Virus record (IMG/VR): IMGVR_UViG_3300028844_003294 | Coordinates: 1-64,000 of that record | Strand: one strand, 5' to 3' | Length of the DNA: 64,000 nucleotides | Source of the DNA: a virus | In this document: positions 15,484-62,777 of the stretch, one piece after another | Layout of the letters: the number at the start of each line of letters is the position of its first letter | Numbering within the stretch: position 1 is the stretch's first letter | Notes under the pieces: model-generated | What the model was told of the DNA's origin: nothing | Seen by the model: the letters and a program-made list of their open reading frames with translations, nothing else | The model's database searches: none | Position numbers and translations under genes: made by a program

Positions 15484-15703
15484 TTGTAACCTCTGCTTCT
15501 GTTTCTATTACAACTCTAGCACCACATGGTAGCAATGGCTTGTCGTTACCACCATAAACAATTTTACTAGGCCCGTGTATTTCTACACTATGTCCGTATG
15601 TATTACTACGTCCTTCCTTGACTGTAATCACAGGCTCGTTAGTTCCGTGTTTTTTATTTGCACGAATCTTGTGCATGTTTACATGTATATATTTCTTTGC
15701 CAT
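15476..15703 (-). CDS. Small conserved phage protein
   Basis: A 75 aa basic protein beginning KKYIHVNMHKIRANKKHG and containing VEIHGPSKIVYG and CGARVVIETEAEV. Proteins of this shape recur in T4-like cyanophages as conserved hypotheticals. The composition (basic N-terminus, beta-rich C-terminus) suggests a nucleic-acid or structural binding role, but none is known to me. The ATG overlaps the previous stop as TAATG. Confidence 0.65.
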   Translation of the reverse strand: MAKKYIHVNMHKIRANKKHGTNEPVITVKEGRSNTYGHSVEIHGPSKIVYGGNDKPLLPCGARVVIETEAEVTIG

Positions 15704-16473
15704 TATATAATGCTCCTTGCATTTAAATGCGGTTCTATAAATTGTTCTGTATATTTTTTATGTCCTTCTTCCGACGGATGTTTATCGTCGTGTTCTTGCA
15801 ATAAATTTTCCTCTTTACACCACTCATACATTCCTGTGCTTATAAATTTATCCCAATTGATTAGTTCGTATAACCATTTTATATTTTCATTATTGATGTT
15901 AAAGGTTAGACTATCGTCAGTGAACCCACTCATAAAATAATCTATATTATGTAATTCTAAAAAGTTTTGTGTCCATAATATATTTTCTAATGTTGTTATT
16001 TCGCTAAATGTTCTGTTATTAAAATTTTTATACCAGGCAGTATTTAAATGTTGATATGGAAAATTTTCAATAGTGCTTGTTCCAGGCGATAAATTTATCC
16101 AACCACCCATATCTGTATATTGTGTATTAGGATGCAAAACATCTATTGGAGTTCTAATAAAATTTCTAGGTCCTATAGGTATATTAAATTTTGCAGGACG
16201 CCTAGCATCCTCACTATAAAAAGCATGCCTGTCTTGACCACTCCACATAACACCAACAATTAAATCTTTGCTTTCTTTTAAAAACTCTGATACACCATAT
16301 ATCAAAGTTCTTACTATCATAGAGTTGCCGGTTGCAAAAAACCCATAGTTGATTAAGTTTAAATTATACTTTGTTGCTAGTTGCTGTGGCCAAGCATTAA
16401 ATTTTTTATCTATACAAGGCAACTCGGTTTGTGTAAAAGAGCAACCAGATGTAATAAGAGTTTTATGTGACAT
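15703..16473 (-). CDS. SGNH/GDSL-type hydrolase-like protein
   Basis: A 256 aa protein with an N-terminal ITSGCSFTQTE block, where the serine of GCSF is the expected nucleophile, then FFATGNSMIVR as the G/N oxyanion block, and DDKHPSEEGHKKYTE near the C-terminus providing the D-x-x-H catalytic pair. This is the layout of SGNH esterases, which often remove acetyl groups from sugars. It lies between two glycosyltransferase-like genes, which fits glycan trimming or O-acetyl chemistry. No secretion signal is present. The start overlaps the upstream gene by 11 nt. Confidence 0.7.
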   Translation of the reverse strand: MSHKTLITSGCSFTQTELPCIDKKFNAWPQQLATKYNLNLINYGFFATGNSMIVRTLIYGVSEFLKESKDLIVGVMWSGQDRHAFYSEDARRPAKFNIPIGPRNFIRTPIDVLHPNTQYTDMGGWINLSPGTSTIENFPYQHLNTAWYKNFNNRTFSEITTLENILWTQNFLELHNIDYFMSGFTDDSLTFNINNENIKWLYELINWDKFISTGMYEWCKEENLLQEHDDKHPSEEGHKKYTEQFIEPHLNARSII

Positions 16474-51513: not shown

Positions 51514-53285
51514 TGCTTACTATAAAAAATGTGAGTGCAAAGAACTTTATGAGTATTGGTAACAATACTCAAGCAGTAAACTTTGACACAGAATCACTAA
51601 CATTGGTTTTAGGTCACAATCTAGATCTAGGTGGAGACGGTAGCAGAAATGGTACTGGTAAAACCACTATTATCAATGCACTCAGTTATGCATTATATGG
51701 TGATGCACTAACAAACATTCGTAAAGATAATCTCATAAACAAAACAAACGGCAAAGGCATGATTGTTACTGTTGATTTTGAAATCAACGGCACCGAGTAC
51801 AGAATTGAAAGAGGTCGTAGGCCAAATGTATTAAAGTTTTTTGTGAATGGGTCTGAGGCGGCCGATGATGAACAACAGGGTGATAGCAGAGAAACACAAA
51901 AAGACATTGAAAAAATAATTGGTTTCCCTCATAATATGTTTAAGCATTTAATTGCACTAAACACATATACCGAACCTTTCCTCAGCATGAAAACAAATGA
52001 TCAACGTGATATGATTGAGCAGTTGCTAGGAATTACTGAAATTAGTTCAAAAGCAGAAATACTAAAAGAAAAATTAAAGGAAACTCGAGATAGAATTAAA
52101 GAAGAAGAGTTGCGAATACAAGCAGTAAACAATGCCAACGAACGTATTGAAAAAAATATAAAGGACATTGAATTACGTGGTAGAGCATGGGCTAAGAACA
52201 AAGAAGACAAGGTTCAACAATTACAAACTAGTCTAGATGCATTACAACAAACTGATATCGATGCAGAATTAGAAAACCATAGACAAGCAACAGAAATAAA
52301 TCAAAAATATACACAAATACAGAGTGTACAAAATGAGGTTAAACAACTTACAACTAGTTTAAAACGCAATGAAGGTAACCTTGCAACACTTGTTAAAAAT
52401 ATTAAACTTGCTAAAGAAGGTATATGTCCTGCGTGTGAACAAAGTACAGCACATTTAGATACGCACGAAGAATACACAACGGATTTAGAAACTAAACTAG
52501 CAGAAGAAAACTCTTACAGCAAAGAGCTACAAACTAAATTATCAACATGTGAAAAGCAATTGATTGACTTAGGCGAGTTACCAGAAACACCAATTACATT
52601 TTATAACAACATGGAAGATGCATTACAACACATGCATAACGTTGAGACAATAAAATCTCAAATAGATGAAAAAATTAAAGAACAAAACCCATACACTGAA
52701 CAAGTTGAACAACTAAAAGAAAATGGTATGGAAGAAATTAGTTACGACTTAATAAACGAACAAACTTATTTAAAAGAACACCAAGAATTTTTACACAAAT
52801 TGTTGACCAGTAAAGATAGTTTTATTCGTAAGAAAATTATTGATCAGAACTTGCAGTATCTAAACTATAGGCTAGGACACTATTTAGACAAACTAGGCTT
52901 ACCACATGATGTTAAGTTTAGCAGTGATCTGAGTGTAGAAATTACAGAGTATGGCAGAGATTTAGACTTTGATAATTTAAGCAGAGGTGAACGTAACAGA
53001 CTTATATTAGGTATGAGTTGGGCGTTCAGAGATATCTACGAAAGCCTAAATAGACCAATGAATTTGATGTGTATAGATGAACTGGTAGACAGTGGCATGG
53101 ATACCACTGGTGTTGAAAATGCATTGGCAGTTCTTAAGAAGATGGGTCGAGAAGCAAATAAGAACGTCTTCCTTATATCACATAAGGAAGAACTGCAAGG
53201 TCGTGTAAATAACGTCTTGTATGTAATCAAAGAAGGAGGATTCACTAGTTATAGCAATGACATTGAAATCCTCGAAGAGACTTAA
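51513..53285 (+). CDS. 46: Recombination endonuclease subunit gp46 (Rad50-like ATPase)
   Basis: A 590 aa SMC-type ATPase, partner of gp47. It has a Walker A loop (GSRNGTGKTT, residues 43-52), a long coiled coil interrupted near residue 306 by a CPAC zinc hook, the ABC signature LSRGERNRL near 488 and a Walker B LMCIDE near 518. Size is close to T4 gp46 (560 aa). All motifs look intact. The gene overlaps gp47 upstream and the GIY-YIG gene downstream. Confidence 0.95.
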   Translation: MLTIKNVSAKNFMSIGNNTQAVNFDTESLTLVLGHNLDLGGDGSRNGTGKTTIINALSYALYGDALTNIRKDNLINKTNGKGMIVTVDFEINGTEYRIERGRRPNVLKFFVNGSEAADDEQQGDSRETQKDIEKIIGFPHNMFKHLIALNTYTEPFLSMKTNDQRDMIEQLLGITEISSKAEILKEKLKETRDRIKEEELRIQAVNNANERIEKNIKDIELRGRAWAKNKEDKVQQLQTSLDALQQTDIDAELENHRQATEINQKYTQIQSVQNEVKQLTTSLKRNEGNLATLVKNIKLAKEGICPACEQSTAHLDTHEEYTTDLETKLAEENSYSKELQTKLSTCEKQLIDLGELPETPITFYNNMEDALQHMHNVETIKSQIDEKIKEQNPYTEQVEQLKENGMEEISYDLINEQTYLKEHQEFLHKLLTSKDSFIRKKIIDQNLQYLNYRLGHYLDKLGLPHDVKFSSDLSVEITEYGRDLDFDNLSRGERNRLILGMSWAFRDIYESLNRPMNLMCIDELVDSGMDTTGVENALAVLKKMGREANKNVFLISHKEELQGRVNNVLYVIKEGGFTSYSNDIEILEET

Positions 53286-53710
53286 TGAGTGCATGGTACT
53301 ATAAAGGACAAGTAGTAGACGAATTACCCGAAGGTTGTGAAGCCATTGTTTATCTTATAACCAATAATACAAATGGTAAGAAATATGTTGGTAAAAAATT
53401 AGCAAAGTTCAAAACAACTAAACCTCCCTTAAAAGGAAAAAAGAATAAACGTAGAGGCACTAAAGAAAGTGACTGGCGTACTTATTGGGGTAGTTCTGAT
53501 AATTTAAAAGAAGACGTAGAAAAATTAGGTGAAGATAAATTTACCCGTGAAATACTTTACTATTGTCCTAGTAGAGGAGTTGCTAGTTACATAGAGGCAA
53601 GAGAACAGTTCGAAAGAAAGGTTTTAGAATCAGACGATTATTACAATGGAATTATCAATGTTCGAATAGGCGGTTCAAAAATTTTGCGAGAATCTCTTAA
53701 AGAGTTATAA
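53285..53710 (+). CDS. GIY-YIG nuclease-like protein
   Basis: A 141 aa protein starting with a GIY-YIG-type fold: EAIVYLITNNTNGKKYVGKK, with VYLI in place of GIY and YVG in place of YIG. A basic segment (KGKKNKRRGTKES) follows, then SDWRTYWGSSDNL and YIEAREQFERKVL, in which a glutamate could bind metal. Similar genes lie near gp46 in other marine T4-like phages. It may be a homing-type or degradative endonuclease. The start overlaps the gp46 stop, and the stop borders the structured gene-free region. Confidence 0.65.
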   Translation: MSAWYYKGQVVDELPEGCEAIVYLITNNTNGKKYVGKKLAKFKTTKPPLKGKKNKRRGTKESDWRTYWGSSDNLKEDVEKLGEDKFTREILYYCPSRGVASYIEAREQFERKVLESDDYYNGIINVRIGGSKILRESLKEL

Positions 53711-55247: not shown

Positions 55248-55556
55248 ATGAAAATAACGGTATTACAAGAAGTAACAGATTGGCCTTATAAGGGTGTGTA
55301 TCACGTGAATGGCTCTAACGAGTTAGTGGCATATCAAGCCAGTTTAAAGGCACCAGAAAAGGTGTTTAAGAACCCAATTAAGCAATTTTCTAAATCTCAT
55401 AGAAAGTTTGAAACTATTAGACAGTATGAGATAGAAAACAATGACCCTAATGTAATTGAGGTTATTGGATCAAATGGCAATGTTTACACTATCAGAGATG
55501 GTAAGTGTAGTTGCCCAGGTTACACATACAGAGGAAACTGTAAACATGTTAAATAA
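55248..55556 (+). CDS. Small SWIM zinc-finger protein
   Basis: A 102 aa protein ending in GKCSCPGYTYRGNCKHVK, the C-x-C-x(n)-C-x-H pattern of SWIM domains, which bind zinc and usually contact DNA or protein. The N-terminal part (ITVLQEVTDWPYKGVYHVNG) is a small beta-rich region. The ATG at 55248 is chosen for AGGAG upstream; an in-frame start at 55146 would lie before the promoter. The stop overlaps the lipoprotein start by 11 nt, so the two are co-translated. Confidence 0.75.
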   Translation: MKITVLQEVTDWPYKGVYHVNGSNELVAYQASLKAPEKVFKNPIKQFSKSHRKFETIRQYEIENNDPNVIEVIGSNGNVYTIRDGKCSCPGYTYRGNCKHVK

Positions 55557-57915
55557 AATTGTAAAAAATGTTTTGGATTTTGGCGTAATTATTGCAATAG
55601 GTATTGTACTTACATCTTGTGCTAGTGGAGGAGGTAGTGCCGGTGTTGCCATTGAACCTTCTTACACACCACCCCCAACAACAACCACTACCCCAGATGA
55701 TAAAAGACATCAGTTTGAATCATTTTCTGATACATTTACACAATCAGCAAGTTCACTAGGTTACAACAAAGTAACTTATCAAGTAGGTGAGTTTAACGAT
55801 ACACAATGGGTAAATGGAAAATATACTGTAGAAGATTTTTCATTTTTACAAGTTGTTATAGATGGTAATCATCCTGGTAAAGATTTAAACAATCCTGACA
55901 GTGATGAGTATTCTGCAGGTGGTAATTGGATGACCAATGCCAGTTTAGTCATTGAAAATGATGTCAATCTAGATGGTAATAGTGACTTTATTATTTACAT
56001 GCAAACATTTGGTGACAGGAACACATTACCAGGTATGAGAATGTTGCAATTTGTAAATGATGGCAATGGACATTTTCAATTAGATTGTAGTGTTTTTGAA
56101 AACAATGTTTGTCCTATTGTGTTTGGCCAAGGTTCTACTATGAACAATATGGGTTGGTACCACAATGAAGATGCTCCTGTACAAGATTATAACTCAGGTG
56201 TTGCTCATCAATATGATTTGAATGGTGATGGTAACAAAGACATTTTTAATGTCAGTCAGTTATGGCTAACAGACAATGGTAAATTTGTTGATGCACACGA
56301 TAACCTACCTGACTTTATGTTTGAAAACCTAAATGCCGACGGTGTTGATGTTGGTATTTTTGTTCATGACCATGCAGTAGGTGATTTAAATGGTGACGGT
56401 TACAATGATATATTCATGCCTAACACTACACCTATAAGCACACACAACAACGGCTACAAGTTTTTTATGCTAAACGATGGCACAGGTAACTTTAAAGATG
56501 TTAGTTTTAAAGTAGGGCATTCAGCCTACTTTGCTACATCTACAACTATTGCAGATTTTGACAACGATGGATTTGGTGATATTGCATTAGGTTGGAGTGC
56601 TTCTGCTTATAGAGACTTAGGCGGTAATAGTGTTGGTGGGATATATTGGGGCAATACTGATATGGATTACACCAGAGACTATACAGCATTACCTCCGGGT
56701 TATTATGAGAATAATATTGCATATGATATGCAAGTGATAGACTCAAATAATGACGGACTGTTAGACATTGTTATTGCTAACACAAATGCTGACCCTTATT
56801 ATCAAGGTCATGTTTTACAATTGATAATCAATAATGGAAACAGAGATTTTAGTCAATTTTCATTTTTGGACGACGGTGCTACTACAAGTGATTTAGGTGC
56901 AGGACATATTTATGTTTTAGATTTCGACCATGATGGAGATATGGATATTTTTGTAGGTCCTGGACAAGACTCTTATGTACTTTACAATAACGATGGCGAC
57001 TGGAGTTGTAAAAATTGTGAATTTGCCAGACCTGATAATGGTGCAGTAATGAGTTTGTTATTTCCTGTAGAAGTTGATGGCATGTATGAGTACGACTTTA
57101 TTGGCATTGATATTATGAACATGAGTGATACACAGACTGTGAGTAACTTTTACATTAGTTTAGATCCTCCAGCACAATTACAAGAAATGCGTAATGAACT
57201 GTTTGACAAATCCATCGATTATGCCAAGGCAGTTTTTAATAACAAAACTATGTTTCATAATATTAAAAATACTTCATTGTCAAATAGTGTATTTTATGTA
57301 GACAATACACATAATAGTATTGCAGGTTATTCACATAACTTTGACAACTTTGGTATTACACTTGGTCAAACCAATGAAGGCGGATTGTTTTATGTAGATA
57401 GACAGCACGGTACATACCATTATGGTATTGGTTACTTTACTAACAGCATTGATGCACTCAGTTTTGGTAATTGGTATGGCACTGGTTCTGCTGTATTAGA
57501 TTTTGACACATTTAATGCGTATGCAGAAAAGTTTTTACCTTTGTCAACAAATATATTTGTAACTTCAGGTGTAGCATTATATCAGACAGACGTAGCAGGT
57601 TTTGTAGAAGAAAATAGTCAATACAATATTACTGTACAAGATTTTACCATGAATGATTTAGAGATGTACACAGACATTACTGCTGTTTTACCTTCTCAAT
57701 ACGGTACTACTTTGCTTAGTGCAGGAGTAAGTTCTCATTACAGTTTAGGTACAACTGACATTACTTGGGATGGTGGCTTGGTATCTAAATTCAAGCAAGA
57801 CGATCAAGTTGCTAGAGCAACAATCAGTCATACTTATAAAATGTTTTATGCTAAAGCAACGTTTAGCTCTGTGGATAGCGATACATTTGAAGTAGGATTT
57901 AACTTACAGTTTTAA
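55546..57915 (+). CDS. Large FG-GAP/VCBS-repeat lipoprotein with barrel-like C-terminus
   Basis: A 789 aa exported protein. The N-terminus MLNKIVKNVLDFGVIIAIGI runs into LTSC, a lipobox with C25 as the lipid-modified residue. A threonine/proline linker follows. The middle carries several calcium-binding D-x-N/D-x-D-G repeats (NLDGNSDF, DLNGDGNKDIF, DLNGDGYNDIF, DFDNDGFGDIA, DSNNDGLLDIV, DFDHDGDMDIF) as in FG-GAP/VCBS beta-propellers. The last about 250 residues alternate aromatic and polar residues and end FEVGFNLQF, like outer-membrane beta-barrel domains with terminal F. It is likely placed in the host outer membrane. Early expression behind a sigma70-like promoter suggests an action on the living host, for example blocking other phages; this is inference. 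Confidence 0.75.
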   Translation: MLNKIVKNVLDFGVIIAIGIVLTSCASGGGSAGVAIEPSYTPPPTTTTTPDDKRHQFESFSDTFTQSASSLGYNKVTYQVGEFNDTQWVNGKYTVEDFSFLQVVIDGNHPGKDLNNPDSDEYSAGGNWMTNASLVIENDVNLDGNSDFIIYMQTFGDRNTLPGMRMLQFVNDGNGHFQLDCSVFENNVCPIVFGQGSTMNNMGWYHNEDAPVQDYNSGVAHQYDLNGDGNKDIFNVSQLWLTDNGKFVDAHDNLPDFMFENLNADGVDVGIFVHDHAVGDLNGDGYNDIFMPNTTPISTHNNGYKFFMLNDGTGNFKDVSFKVGHSAYFATSTTIADFDNDGFGDIALGWSASAYRDLGGNSVGGIYWGNTDMDYTRDYTALPPGYYENNIAYDMQVIDSNNDGLLDIVIANTNADPYYQGHVLQLIINNGNRDFSQFSFLDDGATTSDLGAGHIYVLDFDHDGDMDIFVGPGQDSYVLYNNDGDWSCKNCEFARPDNGAVMSLLFPVEVDGMYEYDFIGIDIMNMSDTQTVSNFYISLDPPAQLQEMRNELFDKSIDYAKAVFNNKTMFHNIKNTSLSNSVFYVDNTHNSIAGYSHNFDNFGITLGQTNEGGLFYVDRQHGTYHYGIGYFTNSIDALSFGNWYGTGSAVLDFDTFNAYAEKFLPLSTNIFVTSGVALYQTDVAGFVEENSQYNITVQDFTMNDLEMYTDITAVLPSQYGTTLLSAGVSSHYSLGTTDITWDGGLVSKFKQDDQVARATISHTYKMFYAKATFSSVDSDTFEVGFNLQF

Positions 57916-58151
57916 CCCATCCAATCACCGCTTTTATCACCACTCTTGGCTTTGTTATATTTGTTAAGGGTGGTTATAAGAGTATCTCGTTCAACAGGAC
58001 TGAGGTGCCATGCTTCTGAATAAGACACGGCGCCTTCACTGTATATAGCCAGCTCTGCTACTGTTTTGATAATCTTCTTCTGTTCTGCGTCGAGTTGACC
58101 TAAGTAGCCTGTAATTGCCTCAGGCTCTGCTGTGCCTAGGAACCCGTGAAA
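57912..58151 (-). CDS. -1 frame extension of gp26 (probable programmed frameshift product, gp51-like)
   Basis: A 79-codon open frame starts inside the end of gp26, in the -1 frame, and ends at a TAA at 57912 that overlaps the stop of the convergent lipoprotein gene. It has no ATG, GTG or TTG start with a Shine-Dalgarno, so independent translation is unlikely. Its product (for example LGTAEPEAITGYLGQLDAEQ, SEAWHLSPVERDTLITTL) is compact, helical and charged, not a random read-through. Joined to gp26 by a -1 shift at 58151-58157 it gives a protein of about 363 residues. In T4 the next hub-assembly gene after 26 is 51, so a gp26-gp51-like fusion is plausible. Confidence 0.6.
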   Translation of the reverse strand, partial: FHGFLGTAEPEAITGYLGQLDAEQKKIIKTVAELAIYSEGAVSYSEAWHLSPVERDTLITTLNKYNKAKSGDKSGDWMG

Positions 58152-58157
58152 AAATTT
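58118..58157 (-). promoter_or_regulatory. Predicted -1 frameshift signal (slippery site plus hairpin)
   Basis: On the minus strand the zero-frame codons read GTA AAT TTT TTC; A AAT TTT (58157-58151) is an X-XXY-YYZ slippery heptamer. Ten nt later CCTAGGC (58140-58134) pairs with GCCT-(G)-AGG (58125-58118) around an 8-nt loop, a 7-bp stem with one bulged G. The gp26 stop TAG is within the 5' arm. Confidence 0.6.
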
Positions 58158-59002
58158 ACAGGATCAAAGTTGATGGGTGCCATAAACTCTTCTCCACATT
58201 CTTCGTTGCTACATGTAACGGCAATATCTTGTTTAACACCTTTGGTGTTTATGCCATTTACTAGTTCTTCGATTTCTTTACCAGTACGATTATCTGTGTT
58301 TTCTAAAAACTCTCTGATAGTTGCTTTGTCTTTAACACTAACATTTTCACCATCTTCGTTTGCATACGTTATTGATGATATGCTTTCAATTAAAAGTTCA
58401 AAATTAAGATCTGCAAGTGTTACAAAACTTTCGTTAAATGCTTTTAATCTTTCCATATCGTCTTTCATTTCTGAAATACTTTGCATACTTCTTGTACTTT
58501 GGAAACTGGCAACACCAGCCTTAATAGTACTACTATAGTCAAACGGTAATGCTTTTATTTGCAATCCATTTGATAATGTAATAGAATATTCTTCGTTGAG
58601 TTCTTCCATTGTGAGTAAAGATTGTTCAACACTAACTGTAAGATCAGTTGTGGTCTCACATTTAGGGCATTTAGCCGCAACATCTACGTCATCTCCGGAA
58701 CTTGCTCCTCTGATAGCAATTAGTAATGCGTCTACGTCAGCACTATAAAGTTTTTTAGGTTTCTTTATTTGCGGTACGCAACTTTTTATTAAACTAGATA
58801 CTGCTTCACCATTTAAAAGTGCATCAGGGTTTTTCAGCAATAATTCATCCTTTGTTGTCATAGGGTAAATTGCCAATTCCTCGTTTACAGCATCTGCATC
58901 GATTATTCCTTCATCATAAAACTGACCACCACTTGGTAATTTTGTGTATAATTTAGGTGCCCTAAAATAGGCACTTAAAGGATTCTGTGTATTTTTGCTC
59001 AT
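58136..59002 (-). CDS. 26: Baseplate hub assembly protein gp26-like
   Basis: A 288 aa gp26-like protein needed in T4 to build the baseplate hub. Conserved text includes LSAYFRAPKLYTKLPSGGQF, YPMTTKDELLLKNPDALLNG and the VDALLIAIRGAS helix. Two cysteine pairs (CPKC near residue 110 and CSNEEC near 270) look like a zinc ribbon around a helical insert. T4 gp26 is about 208 aa. AGGAG precedes the ATG. It is transcribed away from the tape measure gene. Its last codons hold a slippery site leading into a -1 frame extension. Confidence 0.8.
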   Translation of the reverse strand: MSKNTQNPLSAYFRAPKLYTKLPSGGQFYDEGIIDADAVNEELAIYPMTTKDELLLKNPDALLNGEAVSSLIKSCVPQIKKPKKLYSADVDALLIAIRGASSGDDVDVAAKCPKCETTTDLTVSVEQSLLTMEELNEEYSITLSNGLQIKALPFDYSSTIKAGVASFQSTRSMQSISEMKDDMERLKAFNESFVTLADLNFELLIESISSITYANEDGENVSVKDKATIREFLENTDNRTGKEIEELVNGINTKGVKQDIAVTCSNEECGEEFMAPINFDPVNFFTGS

Positions 59003-59120: not shown

Positions 59121-62100
59121 ATGATTGAATTTCAAATAGACGGACAAAATTATCGCTTTCCAGATTGGGTAACAGAGACCACTGGCTTGCAAATGAGAGA
59201 TTTGCTTAAAGAATTAGCAAAGAGAGCCGGCGCCTCCGATTCACACTTAACTAGATTGATAAAAGCACATGAAGAAGCAGTTGAAGAATTAAAAGATCAA
59301 AGTAAAGACGGTAAGAAAACTGATGATGACCAAAAGAAACGTGACGAAAAATTAGTAAGAAAAATTGACGACATGGTTGACGGACTCGACGATGTTAGAG
59401 CCGCAACAGAAAAAATAGAACTAGAAGTACCTAAATCTTTCAGAGATAAATTAGCAGACAGTTTAGAAGCAGACGGAGAAGTAATTCTCGGCTCTCTTGG
59501 CGGCGTAGCAGAAAAACTTGTTAAAGTAGGCGGAGTAATGGGCGGTGCCTTATTGGGTGGCGCAGGTTATGTCGGTAGCAAACTAATGGAAGCCGGTGAT
59601 ACTGTAAACGGTTTAGTTAAAAACGGTATAGGTTTTAATCAAACGTTTGCCAGTGTAGGTGGAACAGCCACAACTGCTACAGCACAACTGGGTGCATTAG
59701 GCTTAGGTTTTTCCGAAGCCGCTGAGTTGATGAAAAGAAATTCTAATGTAATTGCTACTCAAGGATTTAAACGTTTCGATGCAACAATGAAATTTGCCGC
59801 TGATACTTCAGAAGAACTAGGTATGAGTTTTTCAGACAGCATAGAAACATTTGCTGAAGCATTATCAACACGTCAACGTTTCTTAGATCTAGGTGGGGTA
59901 AATCAAACTAGATTAAACTCTCAAATTGCAAAAACAACCAAAATACAAACGGTATATGCTACAGCACTTGGTGAAAGTGTAGATAAGATACAGCAGTTTG
60001 TTGATGATTTATTATATAATAACGGCACACTAACAGCATCTATACTGAGATTTAGTAACACAGTAAGAAGTGATTTAGTTGCTGGCCTAGAAGTATTTGC
60101 TGGTGGCCTTAGAGCAATGGGCGGTAAGTCCGGTGAAAATATTGCAGATGCATTCGTCGAAGCAGGTGCCAAGGGTGCTATAGGTTTAAGTGATGCGGCT
60201 ATAGGACTAGTAACAGCATTACCTAATCTTGCTGGTCCAATGAACGAATTTATTAGTGGTGTCCAAAATGGTACATTAAGCCAAGATCAAGCCAACGATA
60301 TGGTACAAGGCCTGACAAGTAATTTAGGTAATTTAAGTAGTACAGAAAAAGAAAGAATTAGATTACTTGCTAGGGCAGGTGATGAGTCTGCACAAATGTT
60401 ATCACAATCGATTGCACAGTTTGAACAATCTGAAAAGAAATTAGAAGAAATAAACAAACAATTAGGTGTTCCATTAAACATGGACCTTGTGCAAAAGGGC
60501 AGAAACGAATTTGCAAAAGTTTTAGCACAGGCAGGTGGAATGGTAGAAAGCACATTCTTTACTTTGTTTGCTGAGCCGGAAGTAACAAAAGCACTAATGG
60601 ATGGCGTTAAAGAAATAATGGGTGTGTTTGGAATTGCCACAGATGATATGTCTGGGTTAAGAGACAATGCAAAAGCATTTGCAGAGAACTTAGCCAAAAA
60701 AGCAATACCAATTATAAAATCAGTTGCCGCAAGTTTAAAAGAATTTGCAGAATATTTAAGAGATACATTTCAAGAAGGTGGTATCAGCGGTGTAATTGGC
60801 GACTTAATGAGTAAAGCCGCAGGTGCAGTAGTTAAAGCATTATTCAAAGGTTTACTAATCTTTGGTACTATGTTGTTTGCGGCAAGTGCCGCCAAAGTTG
60901 CATTTATGACATACGTTATGCCATCAGTAAAAGACTTTGCAGTTAAAATGTTCCAAGGGTCTGCCGGTGCAGGCAAGTTTCTTTTTGATAAAGCAAAAGG
61001 CTGGATGGGCGGTTTGTTTGATCCAAAAAGTTCAGGCAGGTTGGCCAAATTTGCACAAAGCTCAGCAGGCTTTATCAAAGAAAAAGCATCTGGTTTTGCA
61101 GGCAGTGACACTGGAAAAAACATAGCAGGTAAATTAAGTAAGTTCCAAAAAGACGGTGCTAAGATGACAGAAAATTTAAGTAAATCTGTTACAGGCGGCG
61201 GCAAGAGTGGCGGCTTCTTAAAGAGTATAGCAGATGGTGTATCTAAATTTGGTGGCACTAAAGTAATTAAAGGTGCGGCAAGTTTAGCATTGTTAGGTGC
61301 GGCAATAACACTAGCGGCAATAGGATTAAAAACATTTAATGAAGTAGATTTTACTTCTATTATAAAAGGCACAATAGCAGTAGGTGGCTTAGCCATGTTG
61401 GCACAAACACTAGGCAAAGGCTCAACTGCAATGATAAAAGGTGCGGCGGCAGTTGCAATTTTAGGTGCATCAGTTATTCCATTAGCAGTTGGTCTTAACA
61501 TAATGAAAGATGTTGGCATTGGCACTATTGGTGTATTAGCGGCAGGCTTAATCACATTAGGTGTAGCGGCCGCGGCAATGGGTAGTTTCTTACCACTTAT
61601 ACTAATGGGTGCAGTAGCCATAGGTGCTTTGGGTGTAGCAATTATACCATTTGCATTAGCGGCAAACTTGTTAGGTGGTGCAATGGAATCTATTTCCGCA
61701 GGTTTACAAACAATCGCCGACTTACCAATTTTAGAAGTAGCAGGTTCGTTATTAGTACTGGGTGCAACATTTACTATGATGTTACCATTTATTCCTGGCT
61801 TATTGCTTACTGGCGTAGCATTAGGACTTATGGGTATTGCTTTAGTACCATTTGCCATAGGTGCGGCATTGGCCGCAAAAGCATCTCAAGGATTACCAGA
61901 ATTGTTTGAAGCATTATCTCAAGTAAATTGGTTAAATCTTTTAATGGCCGCTCCAGCATTATTAAGTTTAGCGGCAGGTATGATGGCATTAAGTGCCGGT
62001 GGTTTAGTAAGTGGGTTACTAGATGGTTTAGGTAAACTGTTTGGCAGTGAATCACCATTTGACAAATTAGCAACACTTTCTCAAAATGCAAAACACATTG

Positions 62101-62777
62101 TTGAAATGTCCAAAGAAATGCGTAATATGAGTTCTACAATGGGACAATTTGAAAGTGCATTAGAGGCCATAGATGCAAATAAAATAAACGACAAGTTTGT
62201 GGTTATTGCAGATGGTATCTATGTAATGGTTAAAGCATTAGAATCATTAGGCATGGGTTCAATGGCAAAACTTGTATTGTTAAAATCAATGGGAGTAATG
62301 CCACAAGCACAAGCACCAGCAAAACAGAAAAGTCCAGCACCGATTGGATTTGGTATGAATAACGAAGAAGATCCATTTGCTGATATGCAAGGTGCAAAAC
62401 AAATTAGGAAAGAAGGTGGCGTAGTTACAATGCGTGACGGCAAGCCAGTTGAACTTTCTCCAGAGCAACAACAAAGAGTACAAGCCGCAAGAAATATTAA
62501 ACAAATAATGTCTGGTTCTGCAAAGATGCCAGACAGACAAAGCCAATCAGTTGATCCTAAAGCAGTTCCTGTAACAGGACAACGTGAACTTATTGGACCA
62601 GAAATACCAAGTGCAACAGGACCAACACAAACTAATGCTGATATGGTAGGTCCTAAAAAACCAGACGCACCACAAGATATGTCACAACATTACTTAGAAC
62701 AAATGGTTGCGTTACAACACGAACAAATTAAACTTCTCAAGAAACAAGTTAAAGCAACTGGTGAAATAGACATCTAA
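59121..62777 (+). CDS. Tail tape measure protein
   Basis: A 1,218 aa protein. An N-terminal charged, helical part (EEAVEELKDQSKDGKKTDDD, KIDDMVDGLDDVRAATEKIE) leads into a long helical, alanine/glycine-rich body, and residues about 715-925 form a series of hydrophobic segments (LALLGAAITLAAIGLKTF, LIL MGAVAIGALGVAIIP in the middle) typical of tape measure proteins that insert in the host membrane. The C-terminus is amphipathic (QHEQIKLLKKQVKATGEIDI). T4 gp29 is 590 aa, so a longer tail or a multi-part protein is expected. The Shine-Dalgarno (AAAGGA) is 14 nt from the ATG, unusually far. It diverges from gp26 and precedes the portal gene. Confidence 0.8.
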   Translation: MIEFQIDGQNYRFPDWVTETTGLQMRDLLKELAKRAGASDSHLTRLIKAHEEAVEELKDQSKDGKKTDDDQKKRDEKLVRKIDDMVDGLDDVRAATEKIELEVPKSFRDKLADSLEADGEVILGSLGGVAEKLVKVGGVMGGALLGGAGYVGSKLMEAGDTVNGLVKNGIGFNQTFASVGGTATTATAQLGALGLGFSEAAELMKRNSNVIATQGFKRFDATMKFAADTSEELGMSFSDSIETFAEALSTRQRFLDLGGVNQTRLNSQIAKTTKIQTVYATALGESVDKIQQFVDDLLYNNGTLTASILRFSNTVRSDLVAGLEVFAGGLRAMGGKSGENIADAFVEAGAKGAIGLSDAAIGLVTALPNLAGPMNEFISGVQNGTLSQDQANDMVQGLTSNLGNLSSTEKERIRLLARAGDESAQMLSQSIAQFEQSEKKLEEINKQLGVPLNMDLVQKGRNEFAKVLAQAGGMVESTFFTLFAEPEVTKALMDGVKEIMGVFGIATDDMSGLRDNAKAFAENLAKKAIPIIKSVAASLKEFAEYLRDTFQEGGISGVIGDLMSKAAGAVVKALFKGLLIFGTMLFAASAAKVAFMTYVMPSVKDFAVKMFQGSAGAGKFLFDKAKGWMGGLFDPKSSGRLAKFAQSSAGFIKEKASGFAGSDTGKNIAGKLSKFQKDGAKMTENLSKSVTGGGKSGGFLKSIADGVSKFGGTKVIKGAASLALLGAAITLAAIGLKTFNEVDFTSIIKGTIAVGGLAMLAQTLGKGSTAMIKGAAAVAILGASVIPLAVGLNIMKDVGIGTIGVLAAGLITLGVAAAAMGSFLPLILMGAVAIGALGVAIIPFALAANLLGGAMESISAGLQTIADLPILEVAGSLLVLGATFTMMLPFIPGLLLTGVALGLMGIALVPFAIGAALAAKASQGLPELFEALSQVNWLNLLMAAPALLSLAAGMMALSAGGLVSGLLDGLGKLFGSESPFDKLATLSQNAKHIVEMSKEMRNMSSTMGQFESALEAIDANKINDKFVVIADGIYVMVKALESLGMGSMAKLVLLKSMGVMPQAQAPAKQKSPAPIGFGMNNEEDPFADMQGAKQIRKEGGVVTMRDGKPVELSPEQQQRVQAARNIKQIMSGSAKMPDRQSQSVDPKAVPVTGQRELIGPEIPSATGPTQTNADMVGPKKPDAPQDMSQHYLEQMVALQHEQIKLLKKQVKATGEIDI

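Follow-up and report, generated by a model that had tools for sequence, protein, structure and literature searches.

Conserved frameshifts in tail assembly chaperone (TAC) genes, lambda gpG/gpGT among them, were reportedly described by Xu, Hendrix and Duda. Vladimirov, Gautam and Davidson are said to have identified the TAC genes of T4-like phages (Virology, in 2022), and their abstract reportedly states that several groups of T4-like phages have kept the frameshift and that T4 uses genes 26 and 51. At least in the statements that cite Vladimirov et al. 2022, PRFect (PMC10885494) has some T4-like phages carrying separate short and long TAC genes with no frameshifting, and another paper (PMC12846349) places polyT frameshift signals in the TAC-N genes of T4-like phages. 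The latter also describes a TAC locus in Vandenendeviridae/Andersonviridae, with a -1 frameshift at a polyT motif (GTTTTT) that is conserved close to the TAC-N 3' end.

The locus analyzed here lies in a stretch of 64,000 nucleotides (the window) of the IMG/VR virus record IMGVR_UViG_3300028844_003294. A first-pass annotation of the window suggested a -1 frameshift joining gp26 to a gp51-like extension and knew of no earlier description of such a gp26/gp51 frameshift. This suggestion of novelty does not stand: a 2022 study had reported TAC genes in T4-like phages, as the citing statements in PMC10885494 and PMC12846349 indicate, and the central idea was already known because Vladimirov et al. 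2022 proposed TAC frameshifting in T4-like phages. In the literature that our search covered, we found no description of the extent of the arrangement among jumbo phages, of the double heptamer or of the stem reported below.

Results

A gp26 gene of probable jumbo-phage origin

The 288-aa protein matches the Pfam family PF12322 (T4_baseplate, E=1.5e-22) and the PHROG family phrog_150 (baseplate hub, E=3.7e-26). A tblastn search of annotated phages with gp26 matched 62 records, every one below 60% identity, and the best 60 of the 62 are large phages or short records of large phages. The matches listed include Phosso, the PA5oct group, Atu_ph07, 121Q, RaK2, GAP32, CBB and SCTP-2, and the annotated phages among them are jumbo phages, mostly of 280-490 kb. 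For this reason the 72-kb source record is probably a fragment of a jumbo phage, as judged from sequence similarity. A contig of 340 kb encodes a gp26 71% identical to that of the window. The label "T4-like marine phage" given earlier thus proves loose.

The 1218-aa open reading frame adjoining gp26 is in divergent orientation and gave no Pfam match above the cut-off, no PHROG match and no phage match. On the other side, the convergent gene (window 55456-57915, plus strand) is unusual phage cargo: its product has FG-GAP repeats (PF13517, PF01839), a lipoprotein-like N-terminus (VLTSCASGG) and a C-terminus that ends in F and resembles that of an outer-membrane beta-barrel. Farther away, a small protein encoded at window 53285-53710 (plus strand), next to a gp46/SbcC-like gene, matches phrog_447 (annotated as NAD synthetase) together with several homing endonuclease families, and is possibly a homing-type nuclease.

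Two overlapping heptamers precede an open -1 frame

The 3' end of gp26, on the minus strand, reads CCT GTA AAT TTT TTC ACG GGT TCC TAG (Table 1). The heptamer A AAT TTT named in the first-pass annotation is found there as claimed, within the zero-frame codons GTA AAT TTT TTC; what had been missed is a second heptamer, T TTT TTC, which overlaps it in the same zero frame. Slippage on either would give the identical junction ...DPVNFFHGFLG... and the same 363-aa fusion. When we scanned the window's 35 genes encoding 100 aa or more for in-frame canonical heptamers in an overlap with a long -1 frame, gp26 alone had two, and two other genes had one; with the conservation described below, this marks the gp26 site as more than a chance pattern. 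One of the two other genes, the DUF6071 gene (window 15703-16473, minus strand), has an in-frame T TTA AAT heptamer eight codons before its stop; this is probably ordinary, since the next open reading frame has its own ATG with AAGGAG upstream.

Table 1. Features of the gp26 locus, in window coordinates
Feature	Position	Strand	Basis or detail
-1 frame, C-terminal extension (putative TAC-C)	57912..58163	-	open frame, conservation, AlphaFold2
Predicted stimulatory RNA stem	58091..58146	-	58146-58135 with 58104-58091, 2-nt bulge, inner hairpin 58126-58106
gp26 stop codon TAG, within 5' arm of predicted stem	58136..58138	-	sequence
gp26-like gene, short form (putative TAC-N), 288 aa	58136..59002	-	PF12322, phrog_150
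Overlapping slippery heptamer T TTT TTC	58148..58154	-	sequence; kept in 56/59 loci
Slippery heptamer A AAT TTT	58151..58157	-	sequence; kept in 58/59 distinct loci
1218-aa neighbor, putative tape measure position	59121..62777	+	position only

The -1 frame is open from 58163 to 57915, with its stop at 57914-57912, and its end overlaps the end of the convergent gene; counted from the slip it comprises 79 codons, in agreement with the earlier count. AlphaFold2, with an alignment of contig sequences only, models the extension as all helical (pLDDT 87.6). Foldseek returned no significant match for this model in PDB or BFVD, nor for the gp26 model in PDB, and the extension alone matched no Pfam family and no PHROG family significantly. 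Across 40 aligned extensions, invariance is confined to the two F residues that the slip codons encode. A simple count over related sequences distributes the substitutions after the gp26 stop as 29/24/47% over -1-frame codon positions 1/2/3.

Slip site and frame are conserved in relatives

Our first search for relatives used the extension and gave 80 contigs, and one of its patterns, CKFFHGFL, spanned the slip site. Because such a pattern could bias the count, we redid the search from the gp26 alignment and took the conservation counts from the gp26-based set. All 59 distinct marine viral contig loci in this set carry the gp26 N-terminal motif [ML]KNPDALL, and they were thus found independently of the slip site. 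Heptamer and -1 frame, whose conservation in relatives bears directly on the first-pass proposal, are both maintained: at least one heptamer is present in 59/59 loci, and every one of them has a -1 frame that continues for 55 or more codons beyond the gp26 stop, versus a single locus (1/59) with a +1 frame that long. The script counted A AAT TTT in 57 loci and T TTT TTC in 55; locus L188, whose stop is displaced to a position downstream of the slip site, was added to each, giving 58 and 56. A AAT TTT is the only heptamer in three loci (L167, L181 and L189), and T TTT TTC is the only one in L191 (GTA ACT TTT TTC). As the relatives share ancestry, the 59 loci do not represent 59 independent events.

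The layout extends to isolated phages. In all 15 isolated jumbo phages, including Atu_ph07, PA5oct, 121Q, RaK2 and GAP32, a zero-frame T TTT TTC or T TTT TTT is present and the -1 frame is open for 56-74 codons beyond the gp26 stop; loss of both heptamers was seen in none of these phages and in none of the 59 loci. A AAT TTT, the heptamer originally put forward, is therefore not the most widely shared one, since T TTT TTY is found in 15/15 of the isolated jumbo phages. Kyanovirus S-PM2 likewise combines a T TTT TTY site at its gp26 locus with a -1 frame that is open.

In the jumbo-phage records (L090-L104), the extension either figures as a hypothetical protein of its own with an internal start or is unannotated (PA5oct, RaK2), and a joined CDS for gp26 and the extension appears in 0 of the 15. 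The annotation of jumbo-phage genomes, in which the extension is now a separate or missing gene, would need correction.

A predicted bulged stem follows the slip site

The 7-bp hairpin with one bulge and an 8-nt loop named in the first-pass annotation does fold alone (-7.7 kcal/mol), but its mean pair probability in context is 0.002, because the longer stem pairing 58146-58135 with 58104-58091 takes its bases. The fold favored in context is a bulged 12-bp stem enclosing a 6-bp hairpin, with a minimum free energy of -17.9 kcal/mol. In a set of 42 relatives, the two arms had an expected 9.4 pairs between them, against 2.8 in synonymous controls in which the codons past the gp26 stop were swapped for synonyms; taken singly, 17 of the 42 fell below the 5% level. 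The long stem is predicted in most of these relatives; one of the 42, L063, has a different fold. Compared with shuffled sequences, the window segment is unremarkable in total folding energy (z -1.66). RNAalifold on a fixed alignment returned a short upstream hairpin of near-invariant columns; as bulge length varies between subgroups, we tested the long stem sequence by sequence. Beyond the marine clade, S-PM2, Atu_ph07 and XacN1 each have a strong predicted hairpin, and the stem is weak or absent in several enterobacterial jumbo phages, so that its conservation among jumbo phages is incomplete. The distance to the start of the stem is 4-5 nt from A AAT TTT and 1-2 nt from T TTT TTC; from this difference in spacing we infer that A AAT TTT is the main slip site in this clade.

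The predicted fusion aligns with T4 gp51

Both T4 gp26 and T4 gp51 belong to PF12322, and the latter, the longer of the two, consists of a whole gp26 paralog plus a C-terminal tail, which lies inside the region that phrog_634 ("hub assembly catalyst") matches. Profile comparison with hhalign, the check suggested for the gp51-like extension, aligned 220 columns of the fusion profile with T4-like gp51, as far as the C-terminus of gp51 (E=1.8e-7, probability 94%), and adding the S-PM2 fusion to the gp51 side gave E=2.2e-11 and a probability of 97%. The extension alone gave a weaker match than the fusion (35 columns, E=2.7e-4, probability 42%). The gp51-like character proposed for the C-terminal domain is thus supported by the alignment, with the correction that gp51 is more than the counterpart of the extension, being a whole gp26 paralog plus tail.

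The 3' end of T4 gp26, GAG TTC TTT GAG, is without a slippery heptamer. In S-PM2 and HTVC008M, the gp51-length profile phrog_150 is divided over two overlapping pieces, the first of them gp26; the second piece of S-PM2 falls in the -1 frame, with TCT TTT TTC as the slip site.

Discussion

We propose that a fraction of the ribosomes translating gp26 would slip back one base at GTA AAT TTT TTC, on A AAT TTT, T TTT TTC or both, aided by the RNA stem that starts 1-5 nt downstream. The slipped ribosomes would pass the gp26 stop in the -1 frame and yield the 363-aa fusion besides the 288-aa gp26. The short form would be the tail assembly chaperone TAC-N and the long form TAC-NC, equivalents of lambda gpG/gpGT and T4 gp26/gp51, and both may coat the tape measure protein during assembly of the tail tube. 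We give this reading, a gp26 frameshift fusion with short and long chaperone forms, a probability of roughly 0.88. With slip site and frame conserved, we infer the slippage itself, and a programmed -1 frameshift at gp26 appears very likely. It is favored by the contrast between a -1 frame open in every locus and a +1 frame open in one, with no locus lacking both heptamers; by the layout shared with the 15 isolated jumbo phages and S-PM2; by the two loci without any start in the -1 frame and the invariance of the FF slip codons in the 40 extensions; and by the excess of arm pairing over the synonymous controls, together with the alignment of the fusion with gp51. Weighing against it are the incomplete conservation of the stem among jumbo phages, the different fold of L063 and the shared ancestry of the 59 loci. 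The chaperone role of the two forms, which draws on homology, anatomy and the literature, is likely, although Foldseek gave no structural match in its favor. In the PA5oct record, an ESI-MS/MS note is attached to neighbors of gp26 and absent on gp26, which fits a chaperone insofar as the absence of a note can.

The same data bear on whether the extension could instead be a small gene of its own, with translation beginning internally or coupled to termination at the gp26 stop. Most jumbo-phage database records do have a separate small open reading frame with an internal start, and in Phosso the start assigned to the extension overlaps the stop codon of gp26. However, the -1 frame is wholly devoid of ATG, GTG and TTG in 2 of the 59 loci, and its first start codon lies past 60% of the frame in 15/59; in the window, where the first-pass annotation had noted no start codon with a Shine-Dalgarno sequence, the first is codon 46 of 83, within the conserved domain. 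Protein conservation, moreover, reaches back beyond the annotated starts as far as the FF slip codons. We consider a separate gene very improbable.

Slightly less probable still is that the extension is brought into frame by RNA polymerase slipping on the T run and not by the ribosome. The run of six Ts and the longer runs in XacN1 and HTVC008M are compatible with it, but six is short for RNA polymerase slippage, three contigs with an interrupted run (AAT TTT TCC) keep A AAT TTT and the open frame, and the conserved downstream stem fits ribosomal slippage. As for a sequencing error or a decaying gene, the split frame itself is all that would suggest either, and conservation refutes both: dozens of contigs have the same split, as do complete genomes of isolates, which leaves this explanation scarcely credible.

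Returning to the frameshift fusion, it would extend gp26/gp51 frameshifting from T4-like phages to jumbo phages, and it supports reading T4 gp26/gp51 as short and long chaperones made without frameshifting. It also offers a candidate function, long tail assembly chaperone, for the small hypothetical gene phrog_18291 and its relatives. Whether the clade has a composite signal (two heptamers giving the same fusion, either of which can be lost, plus a bulged stem at the gp26 stop), along with an otherwise undescribed gp26-gp51-like fusion in RaK2-, Atu_ph07- and PA5oct-like jumbo phages, we regard as evenly balanced.

Compared with lambda gpG/gpGT, the locus is alike in that one gene would give a short protein and a -1 extended form, and unlike in that its large neighboring gene is divergent, with a tape measure role that is only putative. 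The TAC locus of Vandenendeviridae/Andersonviridae would share a -1 frameshift at a T run near the 3' end of the short-form gene, although these are different phage families from the lineage of the window. The Kyanoviridae S-PM2 and HTVC008M resemble the window in that gp26 is followed by a gp51-like C-terminal piece, with a T run in a pair of F codons at that point; their gp26 is shorter, however, and the S-PM2 hairpin differs from the window stem. With TAC-N/TAC-NC of T4-like phages, as far as the statements citing Vladimirov et al. 2022 go, the locus has in common the gp26 family as the short form and a polyT -1 frameshift site, and it differs in belonging to a jumbo-phage lineage and in having two overlapping heptamers and a long bulged stem, whereas T4 itself has separate genes 26 and 51.
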